Source: Eublepharis macularius
Lineage: Eukaryota > Chordata > Lepidosauria > Squamata > Eublepharidae
Length of the DNA: 64,000 nt
Assembly (NCBI RefSeq): GCF_028583425.1
Contig: NC_072791.1
Coordinates: forward strand, 29,891,368 to 29,955,367
Reading direction: 5' to 3'
How positions within the stretch are numbered: the first letter of the stretch is position 1; the number at the start of each line of letters is the position of its first letter. Shown here one piece after another: positions 21,911 through 24,900 of the stretch. A model generated the notes under the pieces. It was given only the letters and a program-made list of their open reading frames with translations. It ran no database searches and had not been told where the DNA came from. The translations under genes and the position numbers were made by a program.

Positions 21911-24900
21911 GTACAGAAACAATACTAATATTTCTATCTATAAAGCAAAATTAAGTCTAGCTGCTTATTGGAGACTGGCCAAGAGGCTAGTGCCCATGTT
22001 TTAGCCATTCATTTCTTTTAGAGTGTTTCTTTACTGTGGTTCATTCCTCTGCTAATGCCACAGGAATTTATCATCACCAGCTGTTGTTGAAGTTGACAAC
22101 ATTGGCTTTAGAGTAGTGAAATTTCTTACCAGAGTTGTGATAAGATTGTCACATTACAAATTATGACCGAAGGTTTTGACTGTAGTGCTCATAATCATAG
22201 TGCTTGACCCCACAGAGTATAACTCCAAACAAAACTTTCCGTAGTGCATACTCCAAGAACTTCTGGCATGCTACACTGCATTTTAAGTGGTTTTGGCAGA
22301 TTGGAATGTCACTTAGGAAGACTGAAATTGCACAACTTCTTACTACCACAGAGCTCTGAATAATAATACTTTTAGGCATGGTTGTGGCAGAACATTAGCT
22401 GCTCACATTATAACTCTTCAAAACATAGTTCCTGTGAGCTCATTAATTCAAAAAAGTTACGTTTGAATAGTCTTTCTAGGGACAAAGTTCCTGCTTGCAG
22501 GATCATCCCTTGGAAACTGCATGGTATAATTGATCATAATATTAGAGCTATCTCAATGCTCACAATAATTATTCCAATAATTGGCCCTTTGAATGTGTTT
22601 CTAAACAAAAGAAGGCAGTTTTTAAGTATTTCATTAGCCTAAGTGACATCTGTGACTTTGATGGTGTTTTATTGATTCATCAGTAGTCTGTCTAGATACA
22701 TTTTTAGGGATTTTTAACATAAACATTAATTTTAAAATACATCATTTGCCAATACAGGTTGAACTGCTGGAAGCAGCTCTGGATCACAATACAATAGTCT
22801 GTTTAAACACTGGCTCAGGGAAGACTTTTATTGCAGTACTACTCATTAAAGAACTGTCCTATCAGATCAGGGGAGACTTCAACAAAAATGGAAAGAGAAC
22901 AGTATTTTTGGTCAACTCTGGTAAGAGAGTAATGTAACCTTTTATAAAGGGCATAACACATCTGAGAAAATGTTCCAATACTTGTATAAAATTAGGGGAC
23001 TGTGAAGATTCATTCTTTTTTTTTATGGCCATTTAACCAGTCATATAACACAGTTATACTAAAAATGAAAATTCAAAGCATACAACAGAACAAAGAATTG
23101 TGAAGATGAAGTGACTGCCTCTTTTTTCATTCATTTTGCCAATAAAAGCTCATATTCTGCTGTCTGTTAAGATTATTTCTTGCATGGGGCTGTCTCTCAT
23201 ATTTGAGTGAAATATATGGTTGTCATGTACAATTCTATCTTCTTGATGATGTGCATATTCAAGAAGCAAAACATAACCAAACTTGCCATATTATTATTTT
23301 AGTTAAGATTATTATAGTTAGTATGCGAACCCAACAGTACGTTTCAAAAATTATTTTATTGCTGAAACTCCGTCTCTTCCTTAAAGCAAATCAAGTTGCT
23401 CAGCAAGTGTCAACTGTTAGAACTCATTCAGATCTCAAGGTGGGAGAGTATTCAAGTTCAGAATTAACTGAATCATGGACAAAAGAGAAATGGAACCAAG
23501 AATTTGCTAAATACCAGGTAAGAAATATTAAGCCCCTCTATAATTATTACCATAAGTGTCTAAAACAAGACAGTGCCAAAGTTTTAAGTTCTGATTTCTA
23601 GGAAATAGGTAATGCTGCGGATCCAGGAAAGCGTGTGGAAAAACCCAAGTGTGCAAAAATAGCGTTTTATTTTGTTTTTACACAGCAGCTTTCCTATGCT
23701 CAGTGGTGCAGTTATAGTAATCTAGGTCCTGAGATTAAATCAGGTGCTGCTTCTGACTCCCCTTTTCCCGCTGTTTAAATGAAAATCAGCTATTGCCAAC
23801 TTTCACTGTTTTAATGTATTGTCGAAGGCTTTCACGGCCGGAGAACAATGGTTGTTGTGGGTTTTCCGGGCTGTATTGCCGTGGTCTTGGCATTGTAGTT
23901 CCTGACGTTTCGCCAGCAGCTGTGGCTGGCATCTTCAGAGGTGTAGCACCAAAAGACAGAGATCTCTCAGTGTCACAGTGTGGAAAAGATGTAGGTCATG
24001 ACCTACATCTTTTCCACACTGTGACACTGAGAGATCTCTGTCTTTTGGTGCTACACCTCTGAAGATGCCAGCCACAGCTGCTGGCGAAACGTCAGGAACT
24101 ACAATGCCAAGACCACGGCAATACAGCCCGGAAAACCCACAACAACCATCTTTCACTGTTTTGTCTTTTCCCTGGGTTTGGAACTAAAATCATTGTAAAG
24201 TATGTTTTCCCCCCATGTTGGAATTGTTCAGTGATTTTGTTTTATTTTGCTATTACTTTTGATAATAACTAGTAGTTCATACTCCTTCAGGTTTTTAGTT
24301 GGAGTAGCAGGAATACATTCACCTGGAGAAGCATGAGAGAAGTTTAGTTAAGCTGCTCATTTGTACTGCAGCTGAATGATGTCTAAGCAGCATAACAGCT
24401 GCATTAAAATCTTGTGGTTTTCTGGTGAAAGTCTCTTGAGTTACATGGATCATGTTTTGATGCCTCAAAGAGATGATGATGATGAAGAATGGAGCCTTGA
24501 GAGAAAGCAAAGTAGTAATTATTTTAGAAAAAGCACATGATGTGCATTCTTTTAAAATTATTTCTGTAGGTGTGTTTGCTACATTCTTTGAAAGGAACAC
24601 TGATTTTGTATAATTATTTCATTTACTTTTACTTAAGGTTATCTTTATATCAATTCATTTGTTTAATCTTTGGGTAGAACAACTCTTCAGACTTAACTGT
24701 TATTCCTCCTCTTCAGAGATTCCTCAGAATTGTAATTTGATGAATGTGCTAAAAATATGGTACTTCAGTTTCCGGCAGGAAGGACTTATACCTAATACTA
24801 TTATACCCTACACCTAATACTATGTACGGTGCAAAAACAAGCTTTAAAATGCTGCATTAAGGCAGCTTTGTGGTGCTGTATCAGTGGAACGAATCACTTG

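Follow-up and report, generated by a model that had tools for sequence, protein, structure and literature searches.

The gecko DICER1 gene carries a long perfect palindrome inside one of its introns, which raises the question of what this structure is, how it arose and whether it has anything to do with the enzyme that the gene encodes. We analysed the insert together with the 64-kb stretch of DNA that contains it (the window) and with its relatives in the rest of the genome. The two arms, of 151 nt each (23848-23998 and 23999-24149), are exact reverse complements with no spacer, as the initial annotation had it; when the whole window was scanned, the runner-up spacerless perfect palindrome had arms of only 8 nt. 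The insert spans 337 bp (23813-24149) and includes 35 non-palindromic nucleotides, on the left side only (23813-23847). It is flanked by the two copies of a 13-bp target site duplication (23800-23812 and 24150-24162, unstranded), which are exact repeats as previously described, and the proposal that everything arrived in a single insertion event is thus upheld. The near-perfect hairpin foreseen for the pre-mRNA was also recovered: the sense RNA of the insert is predicted to fold as a single long hairpin with a 4-nt loop, at -322 kcal/mol, whereas 100 shuffled versions averaged -101 (sd 4.8).

The location in DICER1 was confirmed by the exon to the left of the insert, which matches solved Dicer chains (E 3.1e-12). 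The intron extends over ca. 2.5 kb (23518-26042), with its donor GT at 23518 and the next exon starting at 26043, and the insert begins about 295 nt into it; the label of intron 4 would agree with the exon numbering of human DICER1. The initial annotation was therefore right about the insertion event, its target duplication and the hairpin, but overlooked that the insert belongs to a dispersed retrotransposon with a second copy in the window and tens of thousands of copies genome-wide.

A Penelope-like family in the gecko genome

Each arm, read in its own sense, consists of a leader, a hammerhead-like core, an ATG and the start of an open reading frame (ORF), of 85 or 120 nt. The right arm (23999-24149, plus strand) contains the core at 24059-24093, with the predicted cut after 24093, and the first 85 nt of the ORF (24065-24149, ATG at 24065), a reading that continues into the ORF in a longer copy, L049. 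The left arm (23848-23998, minus strand) has the 3' end of the element leftmost and its 5' end at the centre of the palindrome, with the core at 23904-23938; here the first 120 nt of the ORF (23813-23932) include the 35 extra nucleotides, which are ORF nt 86-120 and form a minus-strand tail that the right arm lacks. We identified the cores with a motif scan that permitted one extra nucleotide before helix II, and they show the arrangement CUGANGA ... GAAA ... UH with helix II of 6 bp, helix I of 3 bp and no proper helix III. The Rfam hammerhead models gave no match at the gathering score in the window, nor up to E 10 with one arm. Counted from the A of the ATG, the predicted cut is at 29 nt, which places it 26 nt beyond the start codon. 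The association of hammerhead motifs with Penelope-like elements (PLEs) is drawn from passages of PMC11167929.

The genome contains 46,447 matches with up to two mismatches to the 35-nt core, and none to its reversed control; in 2.24 Gb, this amounts to ca. 1.3 cores per 64 kb, and the window contains three. The second family copy in the window is a lone arm without tail (approximately 4318-4457, minus strand), 98% identical and flanked by a 12-bp repeat (4306-4317 and 4458-4469). A genome search with the insert returned at least 98 matches (from 40 scored candidates), and those listed include entire palindromes with 90-99% identity on different contigs. The exact 22-nt centre (23988-24009, unstranded) occurs at 16 places genome-wide, all among the loci fetched after this first search; the 15 others have other flanks, with a target repeat of at least 8 bp at 14 of them.

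Longer copies (L048, L049, L050, L057 and L058) continue the ORF of which the window copy retains only the start, and in three of them (L048, L049 and L050), which hold pseudo-LTRs in both tandem and inverted order, the ORF contains RVT_1 above the cut-off. The L049 ORF, of 862 codons and with a reverse-transcriptase domain, is identical at 588 of 807 positions (73%) to an 836-residue Anolis carolinensis protein, found among its best relatives and not necessarily PAc, the Poseidon protein itself; both start with MPA and both contain GETSG, encoded across the hammerhead core. The C-terminal region of the L049 product shows the motif GVY...VYIG and a weak, below cut-off match (E 0.0077) to T5orf172, presumably a GIY-YIG-related kind of domain, and the 120 listed relatives of the L049 ORF include one with PF01541 and another bearing the name GIY-YIG. 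Two further PLE traits are present, the target duplication, of 13 bp in the window, and the optional tail of 30-40 bp, here of 35 nt. The insert is thus a short PLE copy reduced to two head-to-head pseudo-LTRs, and most probably no DICER1 device.

Its closest known element is Poseidon of Anolis, from the Penelope/Poseidon clade of PLEs. In the account of Frangieh et al. (2024), as given in passages of PMC11167929, the ORF of the Anolis element runs from the start of stem II, with the ribozyme cut 26 nt beyond the start codon; reverse transcription starts internally on the RNA, at ORF nt 111-118; and the optional tail of 30-40 bp is the stretch between two start sites. The gecko family shares the ATG at the start of stem II, the cut 26 nt past the start codon, the reverse-transcriptase ORF and the tail, of 35 nt; unlike in Poseidon, its arms end at ORF nt 85 and 120, as against the starts at 111-118 given there (PMC11167929). 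The head-to-head arrangement is also known for PLEs: in the relevant parts of PMC3846280, the Penelope elements of Adineta vaga show an inverted pseudo-LTR adjoining a direct one, palindromic junctions, an optional 31-bp tail on one inverted pseudo-LTR and target duplications of 8-10 bp. The gecko family agrees with them in its inverted pseudo-LTRs, one-sided tail, palindromic junctions and target duplications, and differs in that the rotifer elements have few copies and that the authors, who favoured self-priming, gave no statistic on tail pairing in those parts. The palindrome in DICER1 is ordinary for its genome. A literature search with pieces of the sequence retrieved only papers unrelated by title.

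Other repeats occur in the window. A degenerate palindrome at 18183-18353, with 82% identity between halves, contains a minus-strand hammerhead-like core at 18273 and resembles sequence beside L017 and L040; it may be an older inverted element from a different family. There is also an imperfect palindrome at 9468-9573, with 83% identity between halves and related sequence in L026, and a diverged GC-rich tandem array at 40080-40654, with units of ca. 50 and 100 nt.

One tail per head-to-head copy

We compared the outer ends of head-to-head copies, or dimers, that had both outer ends in view. Set 1 came from the first genome search, for which the query was itself one-tailed, and comprises 36 independent insertions, including that of the window. 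Set 2 was chosen disregarding the outer ends, from the core matches listed for contig C1 between 2.25 and 11.63 Mb, as 16 pairs of opposed, exactly matching cores no more than 0.7 kb apart, of which 14 are independent; four wider pairs in the same list (2.1-2.4 kb apart) fall outside the sample. Two insertions are present in three copies each, with a common flanking repeat and one copy in the opposite orientation (L040, L042 and L043 on C7; L080, L081 and L082 on C1); these triplets are segmental duplications and were counted once, leaving out L042, L043, L081 and L082. The count of 50 dimers likewise leaves out the single-armed L031 and L033 and the lone copy at 4318.

Precisely one outer end bears a tail in 35 of the 36 dimers of set 1 and in all 14 of set 2 (49/50; P = 4.5e-14 at even odds), scoring as without tail one end of L079 although it sits at position 137. 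Of these dimers, 26 had the tail on the left and 23 on the right. Another 14 loci taken from the core list yielded four more independent dimers, three of them one-tailed, after leaving out L100, which is the same insertion as L079, six that run beyond the fetched stretch (L093, L094, L099, L103, L104 and L105) and three that are single-armed (L096, L097 and L106). Overall, the extension equivalent to that of the window was found at one end only in 52 of 54 independent head-to-head insertions, and one-tailed pairing also holds at 15 of the 16 places with the exact centre. The two exceptions are L101, with a tail on one side while its other end lies at position 128 and not at the no-tail site, and L056, which may be a composite insertion because it has two tails, no target repeat (3 bp) and a variable position at which its two arms disagree. 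With L031 and L033 being single-armed, as are three of the 14 further loci, two-sidedness is not universal.

This pairing rule is apparently new to print: we did not see it in the titles and abstracts of the Penelope literature searched, a search that most subscription papers fall outside, nor in the available portions of PMC11167929, PMC3846280 and PMC12910113. Head-to-head pseudo-LTRs, one-sided tails and palindromic junctions, as such, were already described (in parts of PMC3846280).

Target repeats, shared variants and inner junctions

Target repeats reach at least 10 bp in 44 of the 50 dimers and 8-9 bp in three more (two are longer if measured without the boundary rule); the short ones are those of L056, L091 and L092, of 3, 4 and 7 bp. 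Among 2450 mismatched pairs of flanks, used as a control, none reached 10 bp and 15 reached 8 bp. Likewise, partner arms resemble each other: 44 mismatches were counted between partners, whereas 2000 random re-pairings gave 86.4 on average and never fewer than 70. At position 141, both arms have the same base in 48 of the 49 dimers that allow the comparison, with L084 carrying a different base in each arm. Since partner arms share variants, both arms of an insertion derive from one RNA or one source copy.

The inner ends vary, both arms halting at one spot in some copies and at quite different spots in others (e.g. 2324|2081, 1|2239, 1|542 and 732|1); they are unrelated between the two arms in L049, L051-L055, L057 and L059. 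In set 2, the arms end within 3 nt of each other in seven of the 14 dimers. Element position 1, which probably corresponds to the 5' end of the RNA, recurs as an inner end and is preceded by CA in nearly all such junctions, the right arm of L023 being different. The junctions of L077, L085, L040, L025 and L023 contain short overlaps or inserts copied from close-by sequence, and resemble the outcome of end joining by polymerase theta. Where one arm is short, it may lack the tail (L054 and L055) or have it (L050, L051, L057 and L059), and is in each of these copies complementary in this respect to the other end. Additionally, in three dimers (L028, L034 and L039) one arm starts at position 84, at the hammerhead core, and L028 and L039 have common junction letters with different target repeats.

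Origin of the palindrome

We consider, with a probability of about three in four, that the insert is best explained as a PLE copy made of two pseudo-LTR cDNAs, produced by two-sided target-primed reverse transcription with one start site per strand. The element protein would cut both strands of the target and prime reverse transcription on each, with one RNA, or RNAs of one source copy, as the template for both cDNAs; one cDNA would begin at the outer start site (ORF nt 120, with tail) and the other at the inner site (ORF nt 85, without tail). Both cDNAs would then run off the 5' end of the RNA, ending in the self-complementary CATG, and the joining of these two ends would give a spacerless palindrome exactly like the centre seen in the window. 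In twin priming of LINE-1, an inverted copy results when both ends of a single target break supply a primer; this is the less common outcome for LINE-1, and its second start is internal and varies in position. Unlike in that process, the second start of the gecko element is a fixed site, 35 nt away. Anolis Poseidon likewise has two start sites within its RNA, similar to the two outer ends seen here, and its protein cleaves and extends both strands in vitro, as described in passages of PMC11167929. The available main text of that paper, where the terms 'palindrom' and 'duplication' were not found, does not invoke inverted copies or tail pairing for integration. Against the two-sided reading, its passages describe in-vitro start sites that did not differ between the two strands.

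Of the other explanations, the one that deserves most weight is self-priming, put forward for the palindromic PLE junctions of Adineta vaga in parts of PMC3846280, whereby a single cDNA, its end folded back, is copied onto itself; in a variant, an antisense template primes itself. Self-priming would account for the symmetric centres without spacer at 13 of the 16 exact-centre places, for the near-symmetric truncations in half of set 2 (7/14) and for the junction inserts copied from close by. However, inner ends are unrelated in many dimers, the short arm complements the other end whether it is tailed or tailless, and nothing obvious would make a copied second arm halt at the other start site, so that we regard self-priming as rather unlikely to be the main route. 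Nevertheless, the coincidence of arm ends within 3 nt exceeds what unlinked truncation would give, and therefore annealing or some self-priming is needed; a mixture of two-sided priming and self-priming is possible. That the palindrome moves by itself, being copied whole as a foldback or MITE-like DNA element, might be suggested by the identity of its centre at 16 places, but these copies carry different subfamily variants, each shared between its own arms, differ in the side of the tail and belong to a continuum in which ORF sequence, arms of unequal length and target repeats of varied length also occur, all of which makes this origin very improbable. Spacerless perfect arms are also typical of foldback artefacts of library preparation or assembly; here we give that explanation hardly any credence because the centre is shared with 15 loci elsewhere whose flanks differ, 14 of them with a target repeat of at least 8 bp, besides the target duplication and one-sided tail of the window copy.

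The remaining proposal, that the hairpin feeds back on Dicer through siRNAs from its own intron, editing or altered splicing, has in its favour that the predicted hairpin is long and perfect and lies within a transcribed intron, and any long perfect hairpin in such a position may undergo editing or cutting. Nonetheless, the family is dispersed and dense, with one core every 48 kb or so, and a copy in a gene of the size of DICER1 is therefore expected; moreover, the DICER1 splice sites appear intact, and the analysis of the insert, the window and the genome family returned nothing tying the insert to Dicer function. A search of the whole 64-kb window with Rfam gave no match of any kind at the gathering score, so that no microRNA family reached it either. 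At a lax threshold we retrieved mainly sub-cut-off microRNA families, such as MIR2646 and mir-4803, which we read as noise of the long perfect stem, and one arm alone gave two chance matches. Autoregulation thus appears extremely unlikely; the position of the insert in DICER1 is probably due to chance, and the hairpin a by-product.

Returning to two-sided priming, it is a wider claim that PLEs integrate as a rule by an asymmetric form of it, in which one RNA is copied from the outer site on one strand and from the inner site on the other and the cDNAs are joined end to end; we hold this generalization to be evenly poised. If true, a single mechanism would account at once for the tails, the inverted pseudo-LTRs and the palindromic junctions of PLEs. 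The paired ends of head-to-head copies are thus a clue to how PLEs insert, and the pairing rule converts a long-known structural peculiarity into a proposition, open to test, about which start site is used on which strand.
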